A stretch of DNA of 64,000 bases from positions 66,315,057-66,379,056 of the forward strand of contig CM067344.1 of the NCBI GenBank assembly GCA_034190875.2, written 5' to 3'. The position numbers were made by a program, and so were the translations under genes. Origin of the DNA: Urechis unicinctus (Eukaryota; Annelida; Polychaeta; Xenopneusta; Urechidae). The notes below the pieces were generated by a model that was given only the letters and a program-made list of their open reading frames with translations, had not been told where the DNA came from and made no database searches. Positions within the stretch are counted from its first letter, which is position 1. Each line of letters starts with the position of its first letter. Positions 23,314 to 56,554 of this stretch are shown here, in pieces.

Positions 23314-26300
23314 CTACAATCAACCCACCAAAGAGATATGACACAATCATGCTGACATGTCACCATTGATGAAGCTTGTATGGGGGACTGTTAATGTTGG
23401 TTATAAGACAGAGGGACTATGGCAGTGAATGTAAAGCTGCTTAGAACAATTCTACAAGCAGGAGTTAGCTAGATTAATGAGAGCCACAAGAAGCCATAAA
23501 TAGCATGTAATGAAATGAGCAAGTAATGCAAATCATCATAACGTCCTGATTATAATATACAGAACATCATAATGTCATCTACGTCAAGAAGTTATTCAAT
23601 CTGTTTAACATATTTACAACTCAATGTCTGCTAAGTGTCTGCTAAGAAACCAAAGTAGTTTAGAAATAAGTATGAAATGGTCATTCGTTTGACTTATTAA
23701 GGGCAAACAGATCTGGACAAAACAATCAATGATGCTCTTAATTGTAAAACAGAGAAAAACATCACAAATACACACAATAATTATTATTGAAACAATGTAG
23801 TTAAAACACAAAATTCACTGTTTTTCTGTGTTGTGAGACACTGGTATAAATTGCTGCATAGGCGTTCTTAAACCACTGTCATTGTTGGGCATGGGTTATG
23901 ATAAAATGACACATACTATAACAGGACATGAAAAAGAAAACAAGGAACAAGAGAGATATCTGAAGAATCCCTGATGAATAAGTCGAACTAACTGTGAGTC
24001 ATATTGTCAGGAATGACAGACTGGTGGATGGGATTACCAGCAGTGTAATTGAAGGACACTTTTTAAGTATGAAGAGGAATGGATAGGTATCACACATCAA
24101 TATGTGCCTTATATATCAACAGTCACATGATAAATCTGAAGATGAATGGGATGACATTTGGGGATGGAGACACAAGAAGTGGAGAAAGGTCACAGACAAC
24201 TTGTGGAGAGGAAAGAAATGCATTGACAAAACACACCACCATACATACATACACATATCCATTTCTTAATATAAATAAGAAGATATAAAAAATAAGGCAT
24301 GCACATGAAACCAAACTGACCTAGTCTTATTAGCGGAAGCTTTAATTTACGGCCTGAATCAAGTTCAAGGGAGAACACATCATTATTTATTGATAATCAC
24401 TTTGAAATCATCAAAATTGACATATGACCCTGTTGGGGTAAATATCATCATATGTTGATAATCACTGAGGATCATTGGGCAGAATGCAGTAGCTAAAGAG
24501 TGATTCGGTAATTTATGCATCTACAGGGTCTAGAAGAGTACAAATCATAACCAAAGGAACTGGCATATTTTCAAGGGTAAAGATGTTACATGAACAAGCT
24601 ACCAGGTAAAAATGCATGTGACAGGTATACAGGTTGAATTATCCATAAATTATTTCTGGCACAATTTATCCATTTATTAAGATGGCCAACTGTAATTCTC
24701 AGTGCCCCTATAATATAAAATACAAATCAGGAGTGTGACTAATAGAAAAGTCTAAATTTCAATGTCACCTGAGGAAGTGTGGTCTTCTGTCTGTGATCGT
24801 GCAAACACAGGACTTGGTGGTCTCACATTGATGGTGAAGTTGGTGGGTAGAGAGGCTTGTCTGGTCACTGGTTTGTGTATGGGGCTGTGGAATGGGGAAA
24901 TTCTGATCTTAGAGGCGTCGAGACGGTCCATTTTACTTCCTCTGCTACCGACCAAATCCAGGGTCAATACTGATTGCTCACTTTTGATCTGGACACACAA
25001 CAGTCTTTGGGCTCAAATGATGAATGCAGCAGATATACAGGGGCACAAATCAGCAAAATATCTCCGATACATAACCACCCATTCCATCATATCCTCACTT
25101 CACCCCCACGTAACCTACCTAACCCCTCTGGCACCATTCACATACAAATTACCCATGTTATACAATTGGCAATATTAGTCTCCCACAAACTATTATAAGC
25201 CAAGCATCCCATACACCCAAAATACTTCCAAAACCAAATAAGATGGATCCACTTGTACATTGGTGGATATATTCTCTTGTAAATGACACAAGTAATACAG
25301 GCTGTGTATCTCTCTACCACACCACATACTAAGTGAGTGATACAGGCTGTGTATCTCTCTACCACACCACACACTAAGTGAGTCATACAGGCTGTGTATC
25401 TCTCTACCACACCACACACTAAGTGAGTCATACAGGCTGTGTATCTCTCTACCACACCACACACTAAGTGAGTCATACAGGCTGTGTATCTCTCTACCAC
25501 ACCACACACTAAGTGAGTCATACAGGCTGTGTATCTCTCAACCACACCACACACTAAGTGACATACAGGCTGTGATCTCTCTACCACACCACACACTAAG
25601 TGAGTCATATAGGCTGTGTTGCCCTCAACCACACCCCACCCCACTCTACCTGAGTGATACAGGCTGCGTTATTGCGAGCATCCTCATCTTCCAGCTCCTG
25701 CTGTATCTCAGCCTCCAGCTCAGCATCTTCATCCATCTGTTTGTGTGACTCCTCCAGGTGTTTCATCAGAACAGCCACCACAACATTCACAAGCACAAAC
25801 TGAGCCATCAGCACAAATACCACAAAGAACACAGGCGCTATCACCAAGTTGACACAGCAGTTCCTCTTGCATTCAGATGATGCATCACAGTTGTCTCTCA
25901 GTGTGTCCTGCAACACATGTACAACCAAATATAGCCACGTCCATTGGTATACAACGTAAGTTATACCCACGCCAGTATATATAAGGGGTCAATGAGTTAA
26001 CAGGAGCATAACATACCTTCATAATACCATTCCAGTTGTCCCCTGTAGCCACCCTGAAGAGGGTGAGGAATGCCATGCCAAAGTTCTGGAAGTGAGCATG
26101 CTTGCTCAAGCCCTGGCAGGGGGTATCTTCTGTACACTCTGAAACAGGTGTGAAACAGTGTTAAAACACTGTCTTATGGCGAACAGGACCAATACAACAT
26201 ATATTGTAGGATATGGTTATTTGGGTCCTTTCATGGTTGAATGACTTACCAAGTCTCCCGAACAGTTCCACTCCAAGCGCAGCAAAGATGAAGAAAAGAA

Positions 26301-29300: not shown

Positions 29301-32300
29301 GGCATTCACTTAATACATTAACCCTTAGTTTTCGACACAGTCGTTAATTCTGTATGCACAAGCAAGCCCTTTCACAGCCAGACTCAGGAGTAAACACAAT
29401 ACCAACCATACAACTTTTTTCGTCTCCGGGCAATAGTTTTAGAAGAGATAGATGCTGAAGAAGGGACCGTGGCTAATGATTGTAGGTCTTTCATACTTCT
29501 GCGTTTTTCCTCGAGTTTCTTGGCTCGTTTAGCCGCGCGTCGAGCCTTCTCCTCTTGCTCCTGACTCTCCCGACACTTGTGGAAGTTCTCCACCACAACA
29601 CCCACGAACATATTGAGAACGAAGAAACCGACGAGAAGCAGGAAAGAGATGAAATAGATGAGGCACCACTCGTTATAGTTCTCCTGCGGCTGTTAAACAA
29701 AAGGGATATAATGATGAAGTGACTGATTGGTAAATATGTCACCATGGGAACAAGAAGGTAAGCTGCTTACCTGTTGGTCCACACCCACTGCATCCAATCC
29801 TGTGTACATGATGTTAACCCATCCATCCTTGGAGGCGAGTACAAAGAGAGCCATCAATGCCTGGTTTACACACAAAGCCAGTGACTATGCATCCACATAC
29901 ACACCTACTTAATGGCAAAACCCTACCACGAATACCATCCAAAGGTCATAGGCTTACAAACACAACTACTGACCTGCCCCAAATCATCAAAGTTATATTT
30001 GCGGTTCACCCAGCGATAAGGAAGGCCCTTGTTAATGCAGTCTGTTTTGTTCTTGACATCTTGTATCATGGGACCATCACAGTAGTAAAATGTTCCCTTG
30101 AAAAGCTGCAGTTTAAACATTAAATTGTAAAAAAAAATCTGCGTACAATGTATATACTAATACAGCCAAGATGGAAAATAGCATGAGCATAACAAAGAAT
30201 ATAATGCTAATTTATAAGTATATTGACAAGAACACATTCTATTGAGTAAAACTGAGCCTCCGAGTTTATCCAATTTACAAATCAATGATTAAATAATAAC
30301 ACATCCTGAAAATATCCATTTTAACCTGATCACACAGAATTGACCCTCACCTGTGATTGCTGCCATAATTACAATTCACCTGTAATCACCGAACTCACCT
30401 GTACACCTAGGATGCCAAATATGATGAAGAAAGTACAGCAGATGAGTACAATATTGCCAATAGGTCGCAGTGATGAGAGGAGTGTCTGTACCACCAGCTT
30501 CAGTCCAGGTGCTCGGCTAATTACTCTACACACAACAAAACAACCATGGGCTTCCATAGAACCAAATAACAAAGTAACAATACACCAGGTGTGATGAAGG
30601 CAGATTAACCAGGCATACCTGAGAGGACGGAGTGTTCGCAGCAACCTGAACACCCGGAGGATGCCAAAGATGCGGGGGCTGGAGGAGGCTATCATGGAGA
30701 TGAAGAGGTCAACAAGGGAAATGATCACGAGGAAACCATCCATCACATTCCAGCCACTCTTGATGTACGAGTGCTCACCCAGTATGAAACCCTTAGCTAT
30801 CACCTGTACCAAGACCATCATACCAAACATAAAATAACATAACTATATCAGCAGAAAGTAACAGTTATCAGTTAGGTTATCAGACAGTCATAACGTATAA
30901 TAACAAATAGGTTGTCATGGCAATTGAAAAAACACAAAATGGTTTGGCATGGCGATGAGGTGCCAAAACAAACATTGTGAAGCTCATAACAGCACATTAC
31001 GGCTTTGATAAATAGTCCATTGAAAACGCAATTGTCTTAAATAGATAATTGTTGATTTCCGGTGGAGTATGAATGAGGGACAGTTGAGGAGTGATATAAT
31101 CTAATGATCACCTTGATAAACATCTCCACACCAAATGTCACAGTGAAGCAGTAGTTGGAAACCGTGAGAAACTTCCTCTCGAAGCTACCAGGTGGGATAT
31201 CAGGACGCTCCATGGCTAAAGTGATGCAGTTGAGCGCTATGAACAAGAGTACAGTGTAATCAAACCACTTCTGGGAGACCATCCTCGTACAAACAATCCT
31301 CAACCTACACAACACATAGACAACAATATCATCATTAAGACTGGATCATTGTCTGTGCAAAACTCTACTATATACTTTTGTTTATATCAAACTGGGGGTA
31401 TCTGGTTATGCAGACCTGTTTTCTGGTGAAAAGATGTAGAGGGCAAAATTAGCGCGAGTCTTGAAGCAGCCACGAGGTTCTGGGCACCAGCTACACCCAC
31501 ACGCCTGTTCCAACACACACCTCTCATATTACACCTGATCTAGCCATGCTCATTACTTAATAATCATATACCTGTTCAGGTGTTGCCAAGCCCCGGCAGA
31601 GAGAGAAAGAGAGAGAGAGAGAGTGAGAGAGAGAGTGTGAGAGAGAAAAGGAGATAGATAGATAAAGGAAAGACATCTCAAATACAGTCAAATACTAAAA
31701 CTTGTTGACAATTATCACTGAGACGAACTGGAGACAATGTGACAATGTACACCCACAATGCAATACAACAACATCTTCCAGTGACAAACAAGACACAGTG
31801 ACACAGCATATGTACATGCATTGGAAACCTTGATATGATGATTGCCAGCAGTAATGATGAGTAAACAGAGATGAAAGGACTCGTCTGATTAGACTAATTG
31901 GATTGTCATACAAGTGTTCTTCTCCTATAACCAAAGGGATATATTGATACATTGATGACCTGAAGGCTTGTGTAATTATTGTGGAAAAAGGGGAATTTTA
32001 TGAAATCTATGGTTTTGGTTGCAACATGCATTAGTTTGTTATATACATATACAGGTAATAATATGGCACCTTCAAGTCTAACACTCAATGATAGTAATGA
32101 ATTGACTATGAATGAGAGCTCTCACATACAATGCATTTCAGAAGTCACCAAGTCTGATGTATGAACAAACATAAATTCATCCATACAATATCAAGGACAA
32201 ACATTTGATCATCAAAATGCTTATTAATAACAACATCAATAAGAAGGTGTAAAATTAATTTCTTACCACTAATTTACAATACTTAACAATAACACCCAAA

Positions 32301-35600: not shown

Positions 35601-38600
35601 ATAACCAAGTGGATCAGATAGATAACAAGATGGTGAGACAGACCAAATGAATTTGGAAGATAACAAAGTAGGTGAGACAGATAAAATGAATTAGAGATAT
35701 AACAAGGGGGTTATGACAGATAGCTAGGTGGATGGAAAAGATTACAAGGCAGACGATATAGATAACAAGATGGATAAGATAGATTACAATATACTCAAGA
35801 ATTCATCAAATAATGTGTGGTACAGTAATCATGTTGGATGGGAAGGACAATACAATGAATAGGCAGATTGTCTAGAGGGAGAAAAACCAAATGCTTTCAG
35901 TAATGAAAAAAGATGCCAAAATTAGAAAACATGGCACAGAATTATACATGGACAACTGTTAACAGCAATGTATTAAAGAATAGTGAAATGCATCAATATG
36001 CTACATGCACAAACATCCGACACTAAATGGGAGTAGTTACTAATGACTGGGGCAATGGCAAGCCAATACCACCGTTGTACTAGCAGGATCATACGATAGA
36101 CCATCCACAAAAATGAGAATGAATTACCTGCTAAGCATATTAACCCTAAATCTCCAGGCTAAAGGCTCATAAACCCATGGAGCAATCCCCTCAGAACATC
36201 AGTGTTTGTACCATAACAAAGACTGTTGCATCCCCAGGTGCTTTTAATCACTTTATAAGGAAATAAGCTTAGCATTAAGACAGCCTTATTCTTGCAATGG
36301 ACTGTGTGTTAGTACTGATCAATGAAAACCCTCAACACCAGCTCAACATTTTCTCCAGGATAAGTTAATTTTACCAAATGTCATCAAAGTAAAACCAACA
36401 CCTAATTAACAAAATACCAGGTAATTTTACGTACCTGTAATTATTGTAACTATGACGACGGCCCATTCCTGGTCGAGCAGCTTCATCCTCTCCATCTTCC
36501 CCACCACTGTCGGACGGGCTGTCTTCAACTAAACTTCTGGCATCGTCTTTTCCTCGTAATCGGTTGAACCAGCTGCGAGAACTGCGAGTGCTTTCTTTGC
36601 GCTGCAATCGGGGAGAGGTGTGGGGCGTGGCATTAGGTGAGGGCTGACTACTTCTTACACTCAGGGTGGAGGCCTTCATAATCAACAAAACCACAAATCA
36701 ATTAAACTAACAATTGATATGTTATCCCAGTGCACAAACACACTCACAAACTTACATGTATGGTCACACTTAAATGGGATTTCACACACGCACACTTGCA
36801 CACACACACACATGCCGTTTCACATGCAGACTCCCATGCATGGTCATACATACATTAAGTCTCACATACACAAAAACACACATACTATTGCACACAAACA
36901 TGCAGCTTTAAAAACCATACACAAACACATCGTTAATCACTTATTTCCAACAATTTATTTAACAAATAAAAAAGTACAAATATATCACAAAATTAAATGC
37001 CCTCAGTCATGATAGCAGCCAAACTCTCACCGAGGAAGATCTGTCGATTGAATCCAGGGACAAGGAACTAAGGTCAAAGGCACGGGCCACTGCTAGGCTG
37101 TTTTTCATGTCTTTGCTGTTGGAATTGGTTTCATTTGGGGAGCCCTGGGGTGTAGCCATGGGCGTGGCGGCGGTGTGAGTGATAATGGGGGGATGAATGG
37201 GGCCACCCGGGGCTGGTTCGTAAGGGCAGCAACCGTCTTCTTTGGTGATGGAGACAGAGGGGGGTAAACCCAGCATGATCTTCTCTGTAACAAGAAACAT
37301 ATGTCAATCAGATAGCAAGTATTAAGTATAACATATATAACGTTTTGGTTTAAGCAAAATAATCCTTGATTTTAAATTCTACCCTTGAATTGCATGGGGG
37401 GGGGGGAGTAGTTGTTTTATCTATCAAAGGTTGCAACAGCAAGAATTCAAGACATTGAAGTGGGTTTGATTCTAGGCATAACATTCCCAGGTATGTTATA
37501 TCTAGGGAATATCACACTCATGGAATGCAAGAAAACATCACTGCACTAATGAACCCGTGAAGACAATATTTTCCTCACATTCTTCCAGTGTAAGCCCAAA
37601 GGCTTGCTTGTTTTTTTCTTGCACATGAGCAACAAAATAATAACAGAAACGTTAGAGGAGAACTTGATTCGGTTTGCCATCACAATTGTTTTACATGCTT
37701 TCTGATGCCTATTCAAAGTGTGGCACATTATTTGGACTTCGACATTGGCATCAAGGACTTCAACTCAGGAGAAATTCCACCTCTGTCATCACAGCAGGTG
37801 AGTGCTACCTCATGGATACACGGTTTTAAGTAGCGGCAAGATGCAACCTTGCCTGAACAAGAAGATATTAATAAACTAAGTACTTGAACCATGAAGGATA
37901 AACTTACCTTTTTCCTTGTTGTTCTTGATGTCATCTCCAAGGCTCTGCTCCCCCTCTTTCAAGCTTGCTTGATGAGCAAGCTTACATTTGCATAGCTTCA
38001 CAAGTACTTCTTTATCTTCTAATTTATTGATGTCTTTTATCTTCATAATTTTCTCCTCTTCTTGTTTTTCCTTATCTTCTTCTTTCTTCTGCTCATCTCC
38101 CTGTAATACAGACATTCACTTAAGTCGTTCAGTGCCTTAATTTTATGTTCTATGCGCCATATAATTAGTCTTTTTTCCTCAAAATCTTTTCCCAGTAAAA
38201 ACTACATTAAAAGAGTGAGTAGGGGAAGTGCTTCACCTCTGATGAAAAGCCCTCCACAAGGATGGCTACCAGGAGGTTGAAGAGCACATAGTTACCAAAC
38301 GTCATAAGAGCAACAAAATACAGAGCTGCCCAGGCAGATGTCATGGACATGCCATTATAGAGGACCTCATTCCAATCCTCCTGAGTCAAGATCTAATCAA
38401 ACCAAAGTAAACACATAATAGAATACATTATAAACAGAATTAATCAAGCAAATTTTCTGAAACCAAAAAAAAATAGTTGAACATTTTGGTATGCTTCTAT
38501 TTTAGAATTTATGAATGTTCAACTATTCTTTTTGGTACACACATTTTATTTCTTAGACGAGTGATCTTATGTAAAAAAAAACCCCACAAACAATCAGATT

Positions 38601-41600
38601 ACTAGTTTAATTAAATTATATACATATAAATTATTAGCAATGTATTAATGTACATGTTAAGCAATTCTACATTTTTACAATTCAACTCATAGATGCTTGA
38701 ACATCAACACCATCCTACCTGGAATACTGTGACAAGTGACCAAAGTAGTGTATTAAAATTCTTTCGATGACATTTGCAAGGAACTTCATGTATCTCGTGG
38801 CAAGAACACTGTCGCTCAGTCACAGGATGAATGCAGAATTTACCGCCAAATAAATGCATACCAAGAACACTGCACAAAAAAAGGAAGAAGATACACAAAA
38901 TAATTGAAAAGACGCAAAAAAACAAAGGTAGGGAGCGCAAATGACACGGAAGGAAAGGCTGCATTCGTAGGGAATGCAATCAGCTTTTGATTCTGAAATA
39001 AAAAACAGCATGCTTATCACAGGGGATATATACAGCTCAAGTACGACATGGATAAACCAAGATATCTGTATTATATCATGGTGAATACTAGTGAGATATT
39101 GGCCAAATCACACTGTGACCCAATGATTCAATGTCCATGCCAATTACAACTCAATTTGAAGCATATCTTTCAAATGGGTGAATCCCCGGTTCTTGGTGCA
39201 TCAAGAAAAGTACAGAAGCACTTTTGTAAGCATACAGCTGCAAGATTGTAGCACACTCCAAAAGAAATGGCTCAAAATTACAGTGCATAATCAGTAAGCA
39301 CCTCAGTAGGGTTATGGAATCCAGGATTCTTGGTGCATTGGATAAGCTGTAGAAGCATTTTTGTATGCATTCTTTTGACTGCAACCCATTGTCTAAGCTA
39401 ATCCCAAACTACTGATAACTCAAAATGAGTCTCTGGCCTGAAAGAGGACCTATTGGGGCAGTGAATTTACAAATGAAACTCTCCAATTCCAAAGGAAATT
39501 GAGTAAGACCAAGAAATCAACATACACAAGACTGACAAACGTTTGTAACACACATGATGTCACAATAGGGTCAAATACAACATGATAAGGAGTAGAGTAT
39601 AAAATACGAGAAGACACCAAACAAATACAGGCCTCACTCCATCTACCTGAAATACAGTCATTATGGCCCACAAGAGCGAGTCAAAGTTTTTCCTTCCGTA
39701 GTGGTGCGCTTTACCATTGCTGTCCACTTTATTAAATTTGCACCCAAAGAGATTCATTCCAAGGATGCTGGTTTCATCAAGGGGGGAAAAAAAGACACAA
39801 TGATAGAAGCATGTGTAAATCTGCTCTGACGGGAACTCTTTGTCAGACCTCCAGTGAAGTCAATCAACAGACAGGTAAATGATGATAAATAATTAGAAAC
39901 AAAAACATTTGAGGAGATTGTCTGATTATTTGAATAGCTGCATGGCTATGTCGACGGTCATTAGACATATATTAGCATCCATCAAATGGGTGTTCTTTCA
40001 ATGTATGCCAGAGCAATGCAGTACCCCACAGTCTGTGACCATTCTTTGCACACAATACATTCCTACAATAGATTGTCCTAGCTGGCAGTGCTCACCAAAT
40101 GAATGAGTTCCTATAATAGAATCCATACTTTCTCATAATGTGTAAGTCACAACAATACACTAAGCCACTTATCACGGGCTTATTATGAAAGAAGACAAGG
40201 ACTGTTCCAAAATAATCATCCATGCTTACAGGATTCTCAAAAACACATAAATACAGAATACAATGGATTGGAATAACACAAATTCATAGCATATATGTTA
40301 ATCAAGGTAAGAAGAGCTTTAAATGCATAATTTATATACCGAGATCAATGTACACAGTTACAAGTTTGACTCACCTGAATATAAAAATGAACAGGATAAG
40401 CAAAGCGAAGAAGGTGGCCACATTATCCATGGTACGGAGCATAATGACCAGCTGATATCGCAGCGCTGGTAGGAAGCGAACCAGTTTGAGAATTCGTAGT
40501 AAGCGGAATGTTCGTAAAATAGAAAGCCCTCCTGTCCCACCCTGCACCAACTCCACAAGGCTGAAAACCACATCAGCAACAACTAAATCACATCGGTCAT
40601 TAAAAATCACATTGGTCATGAAAAATCACACCATCACACAAGACCATAAATGTCATAAAAAGAACAAATAAGCACAGAAGCAATGAAAATCTACACAAGT
40701 GATGAAACTTTTTCAATGAAACAACAACAATGGCAATAACATTGTCAATAGAATCGACATCAGCAATAACAATAACATGGACAAGGGCAATGACATTGAT
40801 ATGTCAGCAATGGAAACGCAACATATCAGCAATGGAAATAGGATTGGCTATAACTAAAATATAACATTAGCAATGTGTATAGCATTGGCTATAACTACCA
40901 AATAACATTGGCAATGTATATAGCATTGGCTTTAACTACCAAATAACATCAACAATAGATATAAAATTGGCTAAAACTATCAAATAACATTAGCAATGTA
41001 AAAAGCATTGGCTATAACTACCAAATAACATTAGCAATGTAAATAGCATTGGCTATAATTGCCAAATAACATTAGCAATAGAATATCATTGGCTTTAACT
41101 ACCAAATAACATTAGCAATGAAATATCATTGGCTTTAACTACCAAATAACATTAGCAATGGAAAGAGCATTAGCTTTAACTGCCAAATTGGCTCAAATGC
41201 TGGGGATGCACAGCCATGCAGAAGCAGTAAAGTAAGGCAGGTAGTGAGGGAGTGGGTATTTAACATGGCGGCACACAACAGTAATCTGTTATTCATCTGT
41301 GACAGTGAACCACCACCAACTCCCCTCCATCAGTCGTCCTCCCACAACAAACCTCTCACTATCTGTCCACCTCCCTCCATCAATCCACCTCCCACCATCA
41401 ATCCACCTCTCTCCATCAATCCACCTCCCACCATCAATCCACCTCTCTACATCAATCCACCTCCCACCATCAACCCACCTCTCTCCATCAGTCCACCTCC
41501 CTCCATCAATCCACCTCCAACTATCAGTCTACCTCCCTCCATCAATCCACCTCTCTCCATCAGTCCACCTCCCTCCATCAATCCACCTCCAACTATCAGT

Positions 41601-49900: not shown

Positions 49901-52900
49901 GAGCATCAGAAGGAGGCTGCACCTGGCACCTACAGCCCCATCATTAACTTCCTGTTTATATCACACACAAGCAAGACGACCCCGAAACGACTGTTCAATT
50001 AAAGCCCTCACCATCTGCGTCGTCGCTTCTTTAAATAACACAACGATTATTAAGTATTTTACATCGTGATTAACACGAAATATGTGTCAAGTTGAGCATC
50101 TTAAAGTATCTTCTCACATTTTAATCAACAGAAAATATGTGGAGCTACAAAGTCAACCTGAACATTCTGAATAATCTTTTCACCTCTTATGATAATGGCA
50201 AATTATGTGTGGCTTAAGACAACAGAAGATTCTTTTAGATTATAATCAACACAAAATATATGCGGCTTGAGTCAACTTTAGCATCTTATAGCACTTGCAG
50301 CATTATTATGGACACAAACTGTTTGCGGCTTAAGTCCGCAAACTCGAAGAGACCCGTCATTTGCAGGACAGTAATCGTAGTAGTCTGACTTACCCTTGTC
50401 CTCAACGTACAGCCGGTGAGGATGGAGAGTGTTGACGTCATGATGACACGTGACCGTGATGGCCGCCGGGAGCTGTAATCCGCTAGGCCGGCGTCCCGGC
50501 GAACTCAATGCTTGCACTTCCGGTGTCGTTGGAATGGTGAGGTGGCGCGTACTTCCGCTCAGGTTGAGAGAGGGTGTCCTGCCCAGAGACGCTAGATGTT
50601 TGGGGGAAGACTGTGGCGTGGATCCCAAGTGCAAAGTGTCTGCATTCCCAACAGTCTCACCGAGAAGACACTGTCTTTCAGCGGCGAGCGATGCAGTCTG
50701 TAAAGGGGTCGATGAACTCGTTTTTGTCTCGCCACTGGGGACGAGGAGATGGGTGGGTCGACGTGGAGTTGACACCAGATCAACATCGGACACCTCGGGA
50801 CTGGCTTGAGGGGCCAACCCCCCACTATCTCCTGTCGATGGATGAGCGTCCCCGCCGACGACTCCATTTGAACTGTTCGTGTGACCAGCACCGTTACTTT
50901 GGCCGGGCGATATATGGAACGGATGATGATAAAGATGATTTGGGTGAGTATTTACAATAGGCGACGATGCTGCTGTGTTGGTGCCACCGATCAGAGTACC
51001 CCCAGCGGCACCTACAGCTCGCTTTTTCCGTCGTTTACGACGAAGTGATATGGCCTTCTCGGGGGTAACTTTACGCTGGTTCCTTCCCCGAAAATTTTTC
51101 AAGTATCTGTTCACTTTTCGCTTACCCCTACGCATTATATGCGCTAAATATTTGATGATTTCATCGTAACATCCGCCAGGCTCTGAATTACTGGCCAGAG
51201 TACTGCTGGAGTGATAGCGCTTTCTTTCCTGAAGCATACGCTCTGTTTCTCGCTTCTTAGTCTCGGAAAATTGTGTAGCAATGACGACAAGACAGAGGTT
51301 GATCATAAAGAAAGCTCCAATCTGCAATCAATGAAAGCAAAGGTGAAGACCAATGAACAAAATGCACACTCTCAAAATGAATCTGTCGTGTTCATTATAT
51401 TACAATATAAATACCATCTTAGACGGGGTTTTTTCGCACATCATTATCATGGCAGTACAAAATGAATACTCTAAAATTATCATGATGACTTATTGCAGTC
51501 ATCATGGAACAAGGGTCGACTGATAGTTTCTAGATATGACACATTAGTGGAGGGTATGAGCGGGAGTGCGTTGTACACCATGCAGGCTTATGTGTGGACG
51601 GGGGGATAGCTGTAGCAACCACGATTGATTCAGGTCAGCCGCTAACCTTACAGGCATGTCCTAATTCAAACTAATCGGTCGCCATTTGCATTCTAGAAGC
51701 ATGGTGACGTTAGTCTAATCATTCCACAACCAGCAACTTTGCATTCCAACATATCGATATCTCATAAGTGATATCTAACCAAAGCCGGGTCCACTAAAAC
51801 TACATGTTATTACAAGCAAGATGGCAATGAAGCGGTCCTCTCTACAGCGGTAAGTAACACATCACGTGATCAACGCTCCGTCTATCAACTAACACGTGAT
51901 GTTGTCGACAGTCGGCCGTCACTCAACACCGGCGTTTATTGAATTACACGTCGGAAGATTCAATAACCTCCCCAAACCCAAATAATCCTTCGTAAACTCG
52001 ACGCCCAACGCGTGTGAATATTTGCCATGTTTGGTCATTAACCCTGTCCAACTGTCCTTCCTCCCCCTTCTTGTGGCACTGACCAGGCAATAAGACGCGG
52101 GCATGTGTGGGGGGGGGGGGGGGGGGTGGCTGGGTTCAGCTCGTACTGAAGCCTTTGACCAACCACACCCGGAAATGAGATCGAACTAAGTTCAGACAGC
52201 TTCCCGGCCATAAATGAGCGCGCAGTACAATTCAATTCACACGATAATAAGTATACGGCGTTTCCCATCCGATTATTACGCAACTTGAGTTCCTAGATAA
52301 GAGAGGCTTTTTTGTGTGTGTGGGATGGAAATGATGCTTATAAACATTATCCCCGAATACACAAACTAAATGATTCAACTGCTACCAAGACATACTTAAA
52401 TGTGTTTTTTCGAAATGGCCTTACTTAACATATACAAAAAACACTCCATGTTACCCAGTCTTAGACATATATTCGCTGAGTTAATACCCTGGTAAACCGT
52501 ACACTAATCGCGTTTTCGTCCCTCCGTCTAAGGGTGATGTGTTAAGACTCTCGGTGATAAGGACAAATGGGAGAAGAATCGTGGAAATCCTGCGAGTGAT
52601 GAGCTCTTAACGTCGACGAGTATGGCAACACACGAGCGGTGATGTAGCTGAGTTAATGCCGCATGGGGTTCTCCCACGAGTATACACACTAGACGAGCAG
52701 GGTATTTGGCCAGAATCACAACTATTACGCAGTAGGAGGAACTATAAATTACCCCCCAATTACCATCCTTTAAAGAGAAAAGACAACATCCGAGTAAGGC
52801 GAGTGTATGCAACAGAACGGATCACTCATACGATGATTAAACGAAAGACTAGCATAACGTTGGTACTAACCGAGCGATAATAGGGCCAATAAAAACCGAA

Positions 52901-53633: not shown

Positions 53634-55393
53634 CGTGCAACTTGTTTTATATATGTGTTCTTTCTACATAAAAAGTGCATGAGTGTATACTTGAGATCAA
53701 ACCAAACACATTACTCCAGAATGCAATGCATCATCGCTGAATCATTCCGCATACAATGGAACACATCCAATATACTTACCCTGCCGCTTAAGTCATCTGG
53801 TGCCCTGTGCTTACATTAGCATATTTAATTATAATAGTGAAAGCACTCCGAGGAGCCATGTTTACCTTACGCTTCACTAGCCGAAAGGGGCAGTTTAATT
53901 GATTTGGAATATAAGGTCACGTACCTCACATATATAAACGCCGAGCGTCCGTCCTTCACACTTGGTAACAATGGCAGTTAACGAAAAGTGGACACGCCCA
54001 CAAACGATCTTACGACCACGCCACATGGTTGTATCACCGACAATGACTTAGCCTTTACAAACGGGATGAATAGGTAAGGTTTGGAGCTCACGAACACCAA
54101 GCTAGCATTACGAGATTTCGCAACGGACAGCCACGCTCAAAAAATAAACACAGGACACAGAATGACACCAAAAATAAACCAGCAACCAACCACGTTGTTA
54201 ATACATTCTAGAATACAACAATGCTTGTTTAACCTATCCTAACTCTAAAGATGTGCGAACGATCAAGGCTCCCATATCATTAAGCTTTGGGTTAATACCA
54301 ACTAGCGGGTATTTGAGCGTGCTTTATTTAACAAGCGTCTGTTTCTTGATACATTGGGCAAGCAGGAGACATCCAGTTGACATAGCTGGGGTAAGAGGTG
54401 GAGGGGTTGGGATGCTTAGATGCTCCAGCACCACGCCTGACACTCACTTACCACAATTAGCGAGGCAAAATATATCCAGTCCCAGAAAGAATGTGCATCT
54501 TGAACATAATACATAATATTTACCCAGCCAGCAAGGCTGATGACCTGTAAAAACACAAACAAAAGCATAAACAAAGACACGTGGTTGTACAGTGTAGATA
54601 GTTGCTACTTACCACTATTAGTGCTACAAAATATATCCAATTCCAGAATGAATGGGCATCTTGAACATAATACATAATTTCAACCCAGCCCTCCAGACTT
54701 ATGACCTGCAAAACAAGTAAGAAAGCAAGGCAATGGAATGAATTAGACACTAGAACGACTTGGACGTCACATGACTGTTGACAATAACACATGATTGTAA
54801 TGGTCACAGGGTTATACTCAGTCACGTGATATACAGGTGCAACACGTGTGACACAAATTAGGATTCGAAGGAAAACAACAAAATCGAGGAGAGAATACAG
54901 GAAGCTAATTCAGATTGGATATTGATTTACGCAGTCCACGCCCCTTTCCACATAGAAAAGTTCATTGCATATTCAATAAAATAACATAGGCTATCCAATT
55001 ATCTATATTGAGTGGGGAGTGAAATGGGGGGGAGTGTGTATGGCTGGTGAGTGGTTGTTTGAGAATGCGAAAAAGAGCGATGGGGTAGGGGGTGGGAGGA
55101 AGAGAGAGAGGAGAAGAGGGCGGAGGGATAAAGAAAGAGAGAGAGAGAGATAGAGAGATGGAGAGAGGAAGAAAGAGGGAAAGAAAGAAGGAGAGAGGAA
55201 TATTTGCGCAGGAGAGAAAGAGTGAGAGAGAGAACGAGGAGAGGTAAAGAGAAAGGGAGATAGAGATAGAAAAAAAGAAAAAAAGGAGAGGAGGACAGGA
55301 GAGATAAAGGAATTGAGAGATAGAATGACATGGAAAGAGGTGGATATGGACGAAGAGAGCGGGAGAGATAGAGAGAGAGAGATAGAGAGAGAG

Positions 55394-55489
<96 letters not shown>

Positions 55490-56554
55490 AAGAGGGAGAG
55501 AGAGAGCGATGAAGGTCGTTAAGACAGGTGTTTATTCCGACCCCACACATGGTGTTCACGAGAAGAAGTCACGCAAGACAACCAGTGCCATATACAGTGA
55601 CCATGCTGTGACATGCTGCAGCATGCATGTCATTGTTAACATACACATGCAACGGCCACGGTCTTCTCAAGAGGAAGTTCTGCTGCAAAAATGTGAAAAG
55701 TAAAATTCGAGGAAAAATCTGTAATAAAAAGAAATGATCTTCACCAAAAATGCTTTCTGCATATTTTACATGGTTGGTCATATACGTGAGAATTGCGCTC
55801 ATGTCAAATTGCACAAAATAAGAAATCATACGGGTTCAAAATGCATGCAATCAGGCTTCCCAAAATAGAAAATTATGGAAGCAAATTGGGCTGATAAATG
55901 AAAAGTTGGTAGATGTAAAAAACAATGAACTACTATGAATCAATCTATGGCATGAAAACCAATGGGGCTTATAAAACAATGAGCAATGTAAAATAGATAA
56001 ATCAAATTGCTGTGGTAAAGGCATTGATTGTGAAATAAAATCACTTTGTATGAAATAGCACACAAGCAAAATTAGAAGGTGAATGGATCAACGAATTATT
56101 GAGTACATAATGTTGGCACTCCCCAAGAATATACAATATGTTGGTGGTCATATGAAGAGAAATGACTTCTTATCAAAATCTGCAAATATGTCCTTCCATA
56201 ATGCTTTACCGAGAAATACAATAGAAGGGCTTCAATAATCAAAATTATTGAAAGCAACAGTTAAAGCCAACCTGAAATATAGCCACCCAGGCTAGGCCTA
56301 TATTGTCAAATGATATGGCGCCTTGGAAGGGATTCTTGTCTCCCGGTTTGCATACAGAGTAATATCTGTTCCAGTCGACACACGATTCGTTGGTGGGTGT
56401 ATTGTTGGAGAATGTGAGGGCGGTCTCATTACATGGACGACCGAGCCAGCGATAGCGGGGTAGGTCACTGCACAAAGTCATGCCTGCATCTTCTGGGTGA
56501 CTGCATATAAAGTCCTTGTCTCTCTCGGTGATGTAGTAGTCCAGAAGGTAGCTC
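21680..56554 (-). CDS. Cav3: Cav3 T-type voltage-gated calcium channel alpha1 subunit (partial at 5' end)
   Basis: Pore-forming subunit of a low-voltage-activated calcium channel in the plasma membrane. Visible parts, in order: domain I extracellular loop, pore and S6; the gating-brake segment of the I-II linker; complete domains II, III and IV; and a long C-terminus. Using one member of each alternative pair, the exons sum to 7168 nt, one incoming nucleotide plus 2389 codons including TGA, with no frame break. Filter signatures are LEGW or LAGW (I), TQEDW (II), SKDGW (III) and TGDNW (IV); aspartates in III and IV define Cav3 against Cav1/Cav2 (EEEE). Other Cav3 hallmarks are [11 protein letters not shown] with [20 protein letters not shown] in the I-II linker, HTAATPM in the II-III linker, and [20 protein letters not shown] in IVS4-S5. 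Exons for domain I S1-S5 lie beyond 59 kb or outside the window. Confidence 0.97.
23314..24768 (-). other. Cav3 intron before terminal exon
   Basis: AT-rich, CpG-poor intron. The first 17 bases after the exon 28 donor hold the in-frame TAG used if splicing fails. No other feature seen. Confidence 0.8.
24769..24988 (-). CDS. Cav3: Cav3 exon: C-terminal tail
   Basis: 220 nt, phase 0 to 1. It encodes [20 protein letters not shown], then [40 protein letters not shown] and [13 protein letters not shown]. Donor TCAG|GTGACA is weak. If it is not used, the frame continues GDIEI and stops at TAG (24752-24754), giving a shorter C-terminus. Confidence 0.88.
25262..25649 (-). repeat. 45-bp minisatellite derived from an exon-intron junction
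   Basis: About seven copies; on the - strand each has CAGCCTGTATGACTCACTTA followed by GTGTGTGGTGTGGTAGAGAG. The unit resembles the end of the adjacent Cav3 exon plus its intron start (CAGCCTGTATCACTCAG|GTAG). The donor GT is lost in the copies. Confidence 0.93.
25650..25907 (-). CDS. Cav3: Cav3 exon: domain IV S6 and proximal C-terminus
   Basis: 258 nt, phase 0-0. It encodes [23 protein letters not shown]6 ([29 protein letters not shown]), then an acidic helix ([20 protein letters not shown]). A Cys-rich IVS6-proximal loop (four Cys) is present. Donor CAG|GTAGAG; the junction has spawned a 45-bp minisatellite. Confidence 0.97.
26017..26138 (-). CDS. Cav3: Cav3 exon: domain IV selectivity filter
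   Basis: 122 nt, phase 1 to 0. It encodes [20 protein letters not shown], then [20 protein letters not shown] and K. D of TGDNW is the fourth filter acid. The [28 protein letters not shown] block is a Cav3 hallmark. Confidence 0.98.
26250..26399 (-). CDS. Cav3: Cav3 exon: domain IV S4-S5 linker and S5
   Basis: 150 nt, phase 1-1. It encodes [20 protein letters not shown], then [20 protein letters not shown] and [10 protein letters not shown]. Donor CTTG|GTAAGT. Confidence 0.97.
26523..26653 (-). CDS. Cav3: Cav3 exon: domain IV S3-S4
   Basis: 131 nt, phase 2 to 1. It encodes [20 protein letters not shown], then [20 protein letters not shown] and RIAR. Matches vertebrate Cav3 IVS3-S4 almost residue for residue. 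Donor AGAG|GTCAGG. Confidence 0.96.
27058..27167 (-). CDS. Cav3: Cav3 exon: domain IV S2
   Basis: 110 nt, phase 0 to 2. It encodes [20 protein letters not shown] then [16 protein letters not shown]. Acceptor TTTCAG, donor GACAG|GTATGT. Confidence 0.96.
27278..27429 (-). CDS. Cav3: Cav3 exon: III-IV linker end and domain IV S1
   Basis: 152 nt, phase 1 to 0 (acceptor CTGTAG|AA, donor CAG|GTTGGT). It encodes [20 protein letters not shown], then [20 protein letters not shown] and [11 protein letters not shown]. Confidence 0.96.
27430..29406 (-). other. Cav3 intron, domain III-IV linker
   Basis: 2.0 kb AT-rich intron. It contains G-rich tracts on the + strand at about 28010-28052 and 28531-28554 that could form G-quadruplex. 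No exon recognised. Confidence 0.75.
29407..29689 (-). CDS. Cav3: Cav3 exon: domain III S6 and III-IV linker
   Basis: 283 nt, phase 0 to 1. It begins [20 protein letters not shown], then [20 protein letters not shown] and a charged coil ([20 protein letters not shown]). The donor chosen is TATG|GTTGGT, the only one nearby giving phase 1; phases 0 or 2 would create a stop with the next exon. The donor is weak in form. Confidence 0.92.
29771..29860 (-). CDS. Cav3: Cav3 exon: domain III selectivity filter
   Basis: 90 nt, phase 0-0. It encodes [20 protein letters not shown] then [11 protein letters not shown] of SKDGW is the third filter acid. Aspartate here rather than glutamate marks Cav3. Acceptor AACCAG, donor CAG|GTAAGC. 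Confidence 0.97.
29974..30105 (-). CDS. Cav3: Cav3 exon: domain III turret
   Basis: 132 nt, phase 0-0. It encodes [20 protein letters not shown], then [20 protein letters not shown] and DLGQ. Two cysteines and one NKT sequon are visible; [14 protein letters not shown] is conserved in Cav3 ahead of the pore. Confidence 0.97.
30399..30525 (-). CDS. Cav3: Cav3 exon: domain III S4-S5 linker and S5
   Basis: 127 nt, phase 2 to 0. It encodes [20 protein letters not shown], then [20 protein letters not shown] and GVQ. Close to vertebrate Cav3 across its whole length. Donor CAG|GTGAGT. Confidence 0.97.
30619..30803 (-). CDS. Cav3: Cav3 exon: domain III S3-S4
   Basis: 185 nt, phase 0 to 2. It encodes [20 protein letters not shown], then [14 protein letters not shown], and the S4 sensor [17 protein letters not shown] with regularly spaced arginines. 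Acceptor GTACAG, donor CTCAG|GTATGC. Confidence 0.97.
31112..31304 (-). CDS. Cav3: Cav3 exon: domain III S1-S2
   Basis: 193 nt, phase 2 to 0. It encodes [20 protein letters not shown], then [20 protein letters not shown] and [31 protein letters not shown] is the IIIS1 signature of Cav channels. Donor AAG|GTGATC. Confidence 0.97.
31416..31504 (-). CDS. Cav3: Cav3 exon: pre-domain III Cys-rich segment
   Basis: 89 nt, phase 0 to 2 (acceptor GAACAG|GCG, donor AACAG|GTCTGC). It encodes [20 protein letters not shown] then ALYIFSPEN. The YIFSPENR part matches the YIFPPQSR segment just ahead of IIIS1 in vertebrate Cav3. The CxCxxC cluster is notable. Confidence 0.93.
31594..31660. repeat. (GA)n microsatellite
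   Basis: GAGAGAGAAAGAGAGAGA type tract interrupted by T and A, in a Cav3 intron. Confidence 0.9.
31661..32386 (-). other. Cav3 intron without other features
   Basis: AT-rich intron between the exons at 32387 and 31504; a short GA run lies at 32336-32351. Nothing else seen. Confidence 0.7.
32387..32564 (-). CDS. Cav3: Cav3 exon: II-III linker, second QNS exon
   Basis: 178 nt, phase 2 to 0 (acceptor AAGTAG|C, donor CTTCTG|GTGAAT). It starts [20 protein letters not shown], echoing the previous exon, then an Ala/Gly/Asp-rich stretch ending KTGIAKLL. The acceptor lacks a good pyrimidine tract and follows a (TG)n run, so the start is a little less sure. Confidence 0.82.
32628..32735. repeat. (CT)n(CA)n compound microsatellite
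   Basis: CTCTCTCT followed by long CACACA tracts. It lies in the 256-bp intron between two Cav3 II-III linker exons and, on the sense strand, provides (TG)n just upstream of the acceptor at 32564. Confidence 0.95.
32821..33009 (-). CDS. Cav3: Cav3 exon: II-III linker with repeated QNS motifs
   Basis: 189 nt, phase 2-2 (acceptor CTTCAG|T, donor AACAG|GTGCTA). It has internal repeats: [19 protein letters not shown] and LSRQNSINS. The RQNS copies fit R-X-X-S basophilic kinase sites. No match outside Cav3 is recognised; phase agreement places it in the gene. Confidence 0.85.
33323..33597. repeat. 29-bp minisatellite
   Basis: About nine copies sharing GACATAACATGACACTATCA and ending in ACAGACAAT or ACAGTCACT; the two endings alternate irregularly. 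Confidence 0.94.
34430..35780. repeat. 20-21-bp minisatellite (GGTGGATGAGATAGATAACAA)
   Basis: About 65 copies over 1.35 kb of GTGGATGAGATAGATAACAA and GGATGAGATAGTAATAAG variants, arranged in higher-order blocks; a block containing GGCAGGGCTGAGACAGG occurs twice (about 34600 and 35130). Long - strand open frames here (for example 34667-35464) arise from the repeat and are not genes. Confidence 0.95.
36435..36673 (-). CDS. Cav3: Cav3 exon: Ser/Arg-rich II-III linker
   Basis: 239 nt, phase 0 to 2 (acceptor ATGAAG|GCC, donor TACAG|GTACGT). It encodes [20 protein letters not shown], a basic [10 protein letters not shown] segment and an acidic [11 protein letters not shown] run. Low complexity; several basophilic and proline-directed phosphorylation-like sites are visible. 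Confidence 0.88.
36719..36930. repeat. CA-rich simple sequence
   Basis: Irregular CACACA/CATACA-rich stretch in a Cav3 intron. Confidence 0.7.
37031..37284 (-). CDS. Cav3: Cav3 exon: II-III linker with HTAATPM motif
   Basis: 254 nt, phase 1 to 0. It contains [19 protein letters not shown], matching the HTAATPM motif of the Cav3 II-III linker, then a Ser-rich end ([16 protein letters not shown]). Donor TCG|GTGAGA. Confidence 0.92.
37908..38100 (-). CDS. Cav3: Cav3 exon: charged II-III linker start
   Basis: 193 nt, phase 0 to 1 (acceptor TTACAG|GGA, donor AAAG|GTAAGT). Highly charged sequence ([20 protein letters not shown] and on), likely helical or coiled, with a Cys/Lys stretch (KLCKCKLAH). 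Poorly conserved in the family; supported by splice sites and phase. Confidence 0.88.
38237..38392 (-). CDS. Cav3: Cav3 exon: domain II selectivity filter and S6
   Basis: 156 nt, phase 0-0 (acceptor GATTAG|ATC, donor GAG|GTGAAG). It begins [20 protein letters not shown] and continues to [20 protein letters not shown] of TQEDW is the second acid of the EEDD ring; IIS6 follows. Confidence 0.97.
38719..38869 (-). CDS. Cav3: Cav3 alternative exon: domain II turret, long Cys-rich form
   Basis: 151 nt, phase 2 to 0 (acceptor GTGCAG|T, donor TTCCAG|GTAGGA). It encodes [20 protein letters not shown], then [20 protein letters not shown] and [11 protein letters not shown]. It is ten residues longer than its partner and has five cysteines in the loop. 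It has the same entry and exit phases as 39647-39767 and a homologous pore helix. From memory, the snail Cav3 has an equivalent pair of turret exons that alter sodium versus calcium passage. Confidence 0.94.
39178..39384. repeat. Diverged direct repeat inside the intron between the two turret exons
   Basis: Two about 65-bp copies at 39178-39242 and 39316-39384 share TTCTTGGTGCAT, AGAAGCA and TTTTGTA blocks in the same order. They sit in the 777-bp intron separating the mutually exclusive domain II exons. Confidence 0.75.
39647..39767 (-). CDS. Cav3: Cav3 alternative exon: domain II turret, short form
   Basis: 121 nt, phase 2 to 0 (acceptor AACCAG|C, donor TTTCAG|GTAGAT). It encodes [20 protein letters not shown], then [20 protein letters not shown] and Q: the end of S5, a short extracellular loop with a single Cys, and the pore helix. 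This is the vertebrate-like version. Since the exon is not a multiple of 3 it must substitute for, not add to, the exon at 38719-38869. Confidence 0.95.
40375..40560 (-). CDS. Cav3: Cav3 exon: domain II S4 voltage sensor and S5
   Basis: 186 nt, phase 2-2. It encodes [20 protein letters not shown], then [20 protein letters not shown] and [20 protein letters not shown]. Regularly spaced arginines ([15 protein letters not shown]) form the S4 sensor. The S4-S5 linker and S5 follow and match Cav3 closely. Confidence 0.97.
40724..41190. repeat. About 41-bp minisatellite
   Basis: Copies share ATAACATTAGCAATG and AGCATTGGCTATAACTACCA; the first few units are more diverged. Confidence 0.9.
41318..41985. 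repeat. 18-bp minisatellite (CCACCTCCCTCCATCAAT)
   Basis: About 36 copies with variants CCACCTCTCTCCATCAGT and CCACCTCCAACTATCAGT. As 18 is divisible by 3, long open frames appear on both strands (for example 41244-41996 on +). They are repeat artefacts in an intron. Confidence 0.95.
42674..42825 (-). CDS. Cav3: Cav3 exon: domain II S2-S3
   Basis: 152 nt, phase 0 to 2 (acceptor TTGCAG|CCT, donor CTCAG|GTATGT). It encodes [20 protein letters not shown], then [20 protein letters not shown] and [10 protein letters not shown], that is IIS2, the S2-S3 loop and the start of S3. GPFGYIKN is strongly conserved in Cav3 domain II. Confidence 0.96.
42826..46159 (-). other. Cav3 intron between domain II S1 and S2 exons
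   Basis: 3.3 kb intron, CpG-frequent. Contains the 20-bp array at 43478-43762. Otherwise nothing recognised. Confidence 0.75.
43478..43762. repeat. About 20-bp minisatellite (CGCTTAACACACTGACAAAA)
   Basis: About 13 imperfect copies; variants replace CGCTTAAC with ACATAAC or GCATTAC. Confidence 0.9.
46160..46281 (-). CDS. Cav3: Cav3 exon: domain II S1
   Basis: 122 nt, phase 1 to 0. The peptide reads [20 protein letters not shown], then [32 protein letters not shown] is the Cav3 IIS1 signature. The donor used here is CAG|GTGTGT at 46160; a second in-frame donor CAG|GTATGC lies 18 nt downstream (exon end 46142) and would add VCCVIQ. Confidence 0.95.
46282..47487 (-). other. Cav3 intron with (CT)n tract
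   Basis: Contains CACACA-rich sequence and the (CT)n run at 46851-46941; the rest is unremarkable. Confidence 0.75.
46851..46941. repeat. (CT)n microsatellite, about 90 bp
   Basis: Nearly pure CT dinucleotide repeat on the + strand (GA on the Cav3 sense strand), preceded by CA-rich sequence from 46745. Confidence 0.98.
47488..47685 (-). CDS. Cav3: Cav3 exon: acidic I-II linker
   Basis: 198 nt, phase 1-1 (acceptor TTCCAG|TG, donor AAGA|GTAAGT). It encodes a basic start ([16 protein letters not shown]), a Ser/Asp/Glu cluster ([19 protein letters not shown]) and a lysine run (KKKKTKS). Vertebrate Cav3 linkers carry a similar acidic-serine stretch just ahead of domain II. The phases fit both neighbours. 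Confidence 0.9.
47686..50393 (-). other. Cav3 intron, no recognised features
   Basis: 2.7 kb CpG-containing intron in the I-II linker. Open frames are short and random in composition. Confidence 0.7.
50394..51321 (-). CDS. Cav3: Cav3 exon: domain I S6 and I-II linker gating brake
   Basis: 928 nt, phase 0 to 1 (acceptor TTGCAG|ATT, donor AAGG|GTAAGT). It begins [20 protein letters not shown] (S6) followed by [36 protein letters not shown] and a basic helix, which is the helix-loop-helix brake that keeps T-type channels closed at rest in the known family. The rest is a low-complexity linker with a polybasic run (LRRKRRKKR) and Ser/Pro/Thr-rich sequence. Confidence 0.95.
51322..54451 (-). other. 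Cav3 intron downstream of the domain I pore exon pair
   Basis: 3.1 kb intron containing an 18-G run at 52109-52126 and the (TA)n tract at 53383-53632. No third copy of the pore exon was found here. Confidence 0.8.
53383..53632. repeat. (TA)n microsatellite, about 250 bp
   Basis: Long AT dinucleotide array with a few G/C interruptions (ATAGATTATATATACGC near 53472). Open frames of Tyr/Ile repeats on both strands are artefacts. Confidence 0.98.
54452..54544 (-). CDS. Cav3: Cav3 alternative exon: domain I pore, alanine (AGW) version
   Basis: 93 nt, 31 codons, phase 0-0, acceptor TTTTTACAG|GTC and donor GTG|GTAAGT. The peptide starts [20 protein letters not shown] and continues [11 protein letters not shown]. 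Compared with its partner there are five residue changes, including the filter E to A and the acid four positions on (E to N), against seven silent codon differences. Frame, length and both splice sites are intact, so a dead duplicate is unlikely. GAG to GCT needs two base changes, so one sequencing error cannot explain it. Whether the exon is transcribed cannot be seen from DNA. Confidence 0.9.
54545..54612 (-). other. Cav3: 68-bp intron between the two domain I pore exons
   Basis: Begins GTAAGT and ends TTTTTACAG on the - strand. It is the shortest intron seen in the gene. Such a short gap may hinder splicing of one copy to the other and so favour either-or use; that is inference. Confidence 0.85.
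54613..54705 (-). CDS. Cav3: Cav3 alternative exon: domain I pore, glutamate (EGW) version
   Basis: 93 nt, 31 codons, phase 0-0, acceptor TTTTGCAG|GTC and donor GTG|GTAAGT. The peptide starts [20 protein letters not shown] and continues [11 protein letters not shown] into S6. E of LEGW is the domain I selectivity-filter acid of the Cav3 EEDD locus. It joins in frame with the upstream ...AIFQ exon and the downstream IGAFFMINL exon. A second copy lies 68 bp downstream in the direction of transcription. Confidence 0.96.
54706..56271 (-). other. Cav3 intron upstream of the domain I pore exon pair
   Basis: 1.6 kb intron holding the long (GA)n tract, which on the sense strand is a (CU)n polypyrimidine stretch ending about 370 nt before the first pore exon. 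No exon found. Confidence 0.8.
55075..55506. repeat. (GA)n purine tract, about 430 bp
   Basis: Purine-rich on the + strand; purest GA at about 55365-55506, more interrupted toward 55075. On the Cav3 sense strand it is CU-rich. Confidence 0.96.
56272..56554 (-). CDS. Cav3: Cav3 exon: domain I S5-P extracellular loop
   Basis: 283 nt, entering in phase 2 and leaving in phase 0 (acceptor GATTCAG|GAGC, donor TTTCAG|GTTGGC). It encodes a Cys-rich turret: [17 protein letters not shown], then [24 protein letters not shown], and ends [17 protein letters not shown] just before the pore loop. Two N-glycosylation-type sequons (NET, NES) are visible. The pattern CVDWNxYYxxC followed by NPFQGAIxFDNIG is diagnostic of Cav3 domain I. 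Confidence 0.96.

Follow-up and report, generated by a model that had tools for sequence, protein, structure and literature searches.

The selectivity of Cav channels is mainly attributed to the residues of the filter ring. In Cav3 (T-type) channels, two reviews give this ring as "universally" EEDD (PMC6259924) and as "always" EEDD, from choanoflagellates to humans (PMC10120453). The locus described here, in Urechis unicinctus, holds two tandem exons for the domain I pore loop of a Cav3 gene, one of which replaces the filter glutamate by alanine, and raises the question of whether a single T-type channel gene can switch its filter ring between EEDD and AEDD. An alternative Cav3 domain I filter exon was not named among the open-licence PubMed Central matches listed; the preliminary description of the locus had named none either, in agreement with these passages and with the two reviews.

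The gene lies on the minus strand of the window (the whole stretch of 64,000 nucleotides that was analysed), which contains most of it, and its 5' end lies beyond the window. A 932-residue set of joined exon pieces scored 1148-1168 bits against four Cav3 sequences in the Protein Data Bank and at most 404 bits against the 14 Cav1 and Cav2 sequences listed at E 1e-100 or better. When a 78-residue piece comprising the alanine exon and its flanking exons was used as the query, Cav3 chains were the top four matches, with a best whole-chain E of 1.8e-52 and domain I as the best-matching stretch. Judged by these matches the gene is a Cav3 channel, as had been proposed at the outset, the bit scores to Cav3.1, Cav3.2 and Cav3.3 being far above those to Cav1 and Cav2. 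No second Cav3 gene was found in a genome search (1.19 Gb in 926 contigs) in which only the best candidates were scored. Immediately beyond the window on the 5' side of the gene, 5,000 bases read N. In the sequence that can be read, the domain I S5 piece had no match where it would be expected; the corresponding exon may lie inside these 5,000 N.

Both pore-loop exons were delimited at their splice sites and named 7a and 7b by presumed homology with mouse Cacna1g exons 6-7-8. Exon 7a (54613..54705, minus strand; 93 nt, 31 codons, phase 0) encodes the domain I pore loop with the filter glutamate (SLEGWVE), and exon 7b (54452..54544, minus strand; 93 nt, phase 0) encodes the same loop as SLAGWVN, in which alanine replaces the filter glutamate and filter +4 is asparagine. 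They are separated by a GT-AG intron of 68 nt (54545..54612, minus strand). The 3' part of the upstream exon (56272..56514, minus strand) encodes the domain I S5-P extracellular loop and provides the donor CAG/GTTGGC common to both isoforms, and the 5' part of the downstream exon (51100..51321, minus strand) encodes domain I S6 and the start of the I-II linker. The acceptors of 7a and 7b read ...TTTTGCAG and ...TTTTACAG, and their donors GTAAGTAG and GTAAGTGA, so that both exons are flanked by AG and GTAAGT; the 7b acceptor has a long pyrimidine tract. When the upstream exon, ending in ...WVAIFQ, was joined through either 7a or 7b to the S6 exon, starting with IGAFFMINL, the frame stayed open over the 186 codons tested, with no stop in either join. 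Joins that keep both exons, or neither, are likewise in frame. Tandem and homologous, of equal length and the same phase and with intact splice sites, 7a and 7b have the makings of a mutually exclusive pair.

The shared upstream donor, CAG/GTTGGC (window 56266-56274, minus strand), departs from the GTAAGT of both alternative exons. A donor that departs from the consensus often accompanies regulated splicing. The consensus given in one review is GTRAGT, from which this donor deviates (PMC6259924).

In mouse Cacna1g, the intron that separates exons 6 and 7 interrupts the domain I pore loop, and exon 8 begins in S6 (PMC2696442); the start of Lymnaea exon 8 has likewise been placed at domain I S6 (PMC3376122). 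As the layout of the present gene is similar, the pair seems to have arisen by duplication of an old Cav3 exon on the spot. One review states that, of two domain I pore-loop splice sites common to other channels, one is absent in Cav3 (PMC6259924), a point that would weigh against the proposed pair if it concerned the boundary seen here.

The two exons differ at 17 of 93 bases and 5 of 31 residues, each of the five replaced codons carrying two base changes and seven further codons being changed silently. From 7a to 7b, the filter residue changes from E to A, filter +4 from E to N and a residue before S6 from N to D, and at the start of S6 V becomes A and A becomes S. By our count along the alignment, the filter position, which is E in 7a and A in 7b, corresponds to human Cav3.1 E354 in the numbering of chain 6kzo. 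Thus, as in the NALCN pairs considered below, the exon both encodes the filter residue and changes it. With 7a the ring reads EEDD with D at +1 in domain II, as is typical of Cav3, whereas with 7b it reads AEDD, which departs from the Cav3 ring. Identity to human Cav3.1 is 22/31 residues for 7a and 20/31 for 7b, and identity to human Cav3.2 is 23/31 and 21/31, respectively. The filter glutamate and one N are the human Cav3.1-like residues that 7a keeps and 7b has lost, so that 7b is the derived copy at these positions. The preliminary description had reported two 93-bp domain I pore-loop exons with intact splice sites and equal phase, joined to exon boundaries at 56272 and 51321, five residue and seven silent codon differences between them, and a second exon that gives AEDD and removes the acid at +4; the coordinates, GT-AG sites, phase and codon comparison bear out each of these points.

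The remaining ring residues are encoded by the domain II filter exon (38237..38392, minus strand; E, with D at filter +1) and by the pieces carrying the domain III filter (D; 29771..29860, minus strand) and the domain IV filter (D; 26017..26097, minus strand). A second copy was not found for the domain II exon, nor, in the gene region, for the domain III and IV pieces. At domain III, filter +4 is asparagine (window 29789-29833, minus strand), as in human Cav3.2, and the asparagine of 7b at +4 hence repeats a state present in another domain. At domain II, filter +4 is glutamate (EDWNE; window 38366-38380, minus strand), as against lysine in human Cav3.1 and valine in Cav3.2; one review gives the name "sodium beacon" to a glutamate in this position of sodium channels (PMC6259924).

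A 24-base core of 7b, allowing at most 3 mismatches, had a single occurrence in the window and none in 100 shuffles. In a blastn search of 104 kb, of which 5 kb are N, two full-length copies were recovered and all other matches were short (at most 34 bases, E 0.02 or worse), and no third copy or relic of the exon was found in the gene within those 104 kb. Searching the genome with the alanine exon returned two places, the exon itself and its neighbour (2 of 2 candidates, only the best being scored); the domain II filter exon gave one full match, the other three matches having at most 55% identity. Chance similarity and an assembly duplicate are ruled out by the 17 base differences, by introns that do not align above shuffles and by the single locus found among the best-scoring genome candidates. 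Eight loci (L019-L026) were examined out of 12 fetched. Among them, the genes that we take from their motifs to be Cav1- and Cav2-like (two loci each) have the domain I filter MEGW, with the glutamate kept, in one copy each in about 3 kb; L024, L025 and L026, which have a domain I-like pore match, retain an acidic filter residue, and L023 corresponds to the domain II filter of the Cav3 gene itself. An exon derived from a Cav1, Cav2 or Nav gene is ruled out by the sequence matches and by what the Cav1- and Cav2-like genes carry in domain I. For an exon donated by another Cav3 gene, no donor was found among the best-scoring genome candidates.

We consider it rather probable that an old exon 7 tandem duplication has been kept as a mutually exclusive pair that switches the filter chemistry between EEDD and AEDD; from the genome sequence, we infer transcription, mutual exclusion, folding, selectivity and physiological use of the 7b form. 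Cav3 exon 7 would have been duplicated in tandem long ago and both copies retained, each transcript taking either 7a, with EEDD and an ordinary T-type pore, or 7b, with AEDD and a neutral residue also in place of the outer +4 acid. The 68-nt gap probably keeps 7a and 7b from being spliced together. Since the join that includes both exons is in frame, nonsense decay would offer no guard and another would be needed, of which the short intron seems the likelier: it is perhaps too short for easy 7a-to-7b splicing, which would make double inclusion unlikely. Within this intron, the A of a branch-point-like match (TTTAT) lies 45 nt from the donor, with 23 nt left to the acceptor, a position that together with the intron length suggests steric exclusion. 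Steric exclusion is the mechanism of other exon pairs. The 7b channel keeps the pore helix, the tryptophan, S6 and the voltage sensors, and should still fold and open at low voltage; its pore, lacking one of the four ring carboxylates and an outer acid, would bind calcium more weakly and pass more monovalent cation, namely sodium, and less calcium.

Engineered channels offer a guide to this expectation. The same residue position has been neutralised in Cav2.1 and Cav2.2 (E to A; PMC6899504) and reversed in Cav3.2 (E378K; PMC7060640), although, unlike the natural exon 7b, these mutants are laboratory-made and concern either another subtype (Cav2) or another residue (lysine). The domain I E to A change left Cav2.2 and Cav2.1 with a small inward Ba current and a substantial outward current, which in Cav2.2 was carried mainly by Cs (PMC6899504). 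Surface expression in N2A cells fell by 53.5% for Cav2.2 and 33.5% for Cav2.1, and in hippocampal neurites the surface Cav2.2 channel fell by 76.3% (PMC6899504). Cav3.2 E378K, at the domain I filter, is cation-impermeant and trafficking-competent and has been used as a pore-dead control (PMC7060640). From this behaviour, 7b would be expected to be less calcium-selective and sodium-passing, the main rival being a form that does not conduct or is poorly trafficked. By analogy with these mutants of other Cav channels, the suggestion of the preliminary description, a product that is less calcium-selective or dominant-negative, is a reasonable conjecture.

According to that main rival, 7b is a Cav3 form that does not conduct, or traffics poorly, and lowers the T-type current wherever it is spliced in, acting as a splicing-controlled off switch or as a voltage sensor without calcium entry. 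The impermeant yet trafficking-competent E378K channel speaks for the non-conducting version and the reduced surface expression of the Cav2 mutants for the trafficking-poor one. The residue in 7b is alanine, however, and not lysine, and the E to A channels of Cav2 did pass substantial outward current; moreover, the conservation of the rest of the pore loop, tryptophan and pore helix included, suggests a working pore. We regard this rival as unlikely, although worth serious attention.

For 7b against 7a, the estimates of dS disagree between methods, at 1.06 (NG86), 0.76 (LWL85) and 0.50 (YN00), and a maximum-likelihood estimate of 5.9 was saturated and left unused; dN was 0.09-0.14. Omega, from 31 codons in one genome, was 0.087 (NG86), 0.16 (LWL85) and 0.28 (YN00), with a 97.5% bound of 0.25 for the NG86 value in a codon bootstrap. 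The flanking introns of the two copies aligned with a score within the range of 300 shuffles. In simulations of 1,500 runs per setting, both copies evolved for equal times from an ancestor resembling 7a, with 7a constrained at an omega of 0.05, and we counted the runs that ended with 8 or more synonymous and no more than 5 residue differences, absence of stops not being required. With 7b neutral, P ranged from 0 to 0.010 over all 8 settings; an omega of 0.5 was weakly disfavoured (P 0 to 0.084), 0.3 fitted (P 0.04-0.27), and 0.1 and 0.05 gave P 0.06-0.70 and 0.07-0.85, respectively. When all 17 changes were placed on one neutral branch, no more than 5 residue differences arose with a probability of 0, 0 and 0.00005. 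When the number of neutral changes on the alanine copy was fixed, in a two-branch shortcut, P was 1.0 (5 changes), 0.34 (8) and 0.013 (12). The shortcut does not reject neutrality at 5 or 8 changes and does reject it at 12; it was set aside in favour of the full simulation because it does not tie the silent and replacement rates together.

The omega of 0.09-0.28, the intact frame and splice sites and the neutral P of at most 0.010 do not fit a pseudo-exon or decaying duplicate. On the simulations and omega, 7b is an old copy that has been constrained for most of its life, perhaps less tightly than 7a, as a long-term average over 31 codons of one genome. The preliminary description had held that the alanine copy was kept under selection; purifying selection over most of its life stands, and the claim was slightly overstated to the extent that this is such an average, that an omega of 0.3 also fits and that use may have been lost recently. 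This bears on a second, unlikely rival, which we rate below the non-conducting form: 7b may be a relic, formerly used and now skipped or spliced only as noise. One genome is the basis of the estimates, an omega of 0.3 on 7b would suit a relic as well, and if use had ceased only recently, hardly any decay would be visible yet. Nevertheless, the frame, the pyrimidine-tract acceptor, the GTAAGT donor and all but 5 residues are intact despite a dS of about 0.5-1.1, and neutrality throughout is rejected in every setting simulated. A third rival, in which both exons are used and differ chiefly in gating or in block by protons, zinc, nickel or pore-mouth toxins and not in sodium versus calcium, draws on the changes at filter +4 and the start of S6 among the five and on the effect of outer-vestibule charges on divalent and toxin block (PMC10120453), but is very improbable, as the most radical change falls on the ring residue that is held mainly responsible for selectivity (PMC6259924).

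A switch between EEDD and AEDD by exon choice would have its nearest known counterpart in NALCN, in which exons 15a/15b (EEEE/EKEE) and 31a/31b (EEEE/EEKE) are mutually exclusive filter exons (PMC3557258). As in 7a/7b, these are tandem pore-loop exons of which the 5' copy has the filter glutamate and the 3' copy an altered filter residue, and their alternative use changes the filter chemistry (PMC3557258). NALCN differs in being a leak channel, in varying domain II or III and not domain I, and in exchanging E for K and not for A; furthermore, transcripts of the Lymnaea NALCN domain II pair (exon 15) have been sequenced (PMC3557258), whereas 7a/7b is described here from genomic sequence. For the ring itself, the DEEA filter of Nav2 offers a likeness, as it combines three acids with one alanine, like AEDD, and has been modelled as accommodating sodium, potassium and calcium (PMC6259924). 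Its alanine is in domain IV, however, its domain II filter is shortened and no exon switch is involved (PMC6259924).

Within the Cav3 family, the turret exons 12a/12b of molluscs and nematodes are known to switch the calcium/sodium preference (PMC9694082, PMC10120453, PMC4436565), and in Lymnaea Cav3 they switch the channel between sodium and calcium preference (PMC9694082). This pair alters the loop that overlies the domain II filter and does not touch EEDD itself, whereas 7a/7b alters the domain I filter residue itself. Twenty-two Cav3 query pieces, two of them 7a and 7b, were tested for tandem copies (the linkers and the C-terminus lying outside the set), and a second copy at the same position was found at two sites, one being the domain I filter and the other the domain II turret. 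A pair at the place of 12a/12b, and probably of that kind, is present in the U. unicinctus gene too, with a short form at the 12a position (39647..39767, minus strand; 121 nt, one cysteine) and a long form of the 12b type (38719..38869, minus strand; 151 nt, five cysteines). Known turret exons have five cysteines in 12b and three in the 12a of snails (PMC9694082, PMC10120453, PMC4436565); the long exon here has the expected five, and the single cysteine of the short exon is as reported for vertebrates.

These two sites allow a wider reading, which is tentative but quite possible: one Cav3 gene would have two independent pore switches, 7a/7b and 12a/12b, and its 7b forms would be, among animal Cav channels, the first natural ones to carry a neutral ring residue, namely low-threshold, sodium-permeable AEDD channels made by filter splicing. 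Given the synonymous divergence of the copies, other species should share exon 7b under this reading. If both pairs are used, up to four pores would come from one gene, the domain I switch sitting beside a second switch whose kind has been shown to alter selectivity. If an exon that takes away one of the four acids proved natural and conserved, the "always EEDD" rule for Cav3 would be broken, and EEDD and AEDD in one backbone would provide a ready-made test of the role of each carboxylate in a low-voltage channel. The swapping of filter exons, known for NALCN, would then have arisen in a true calcium channel as well.
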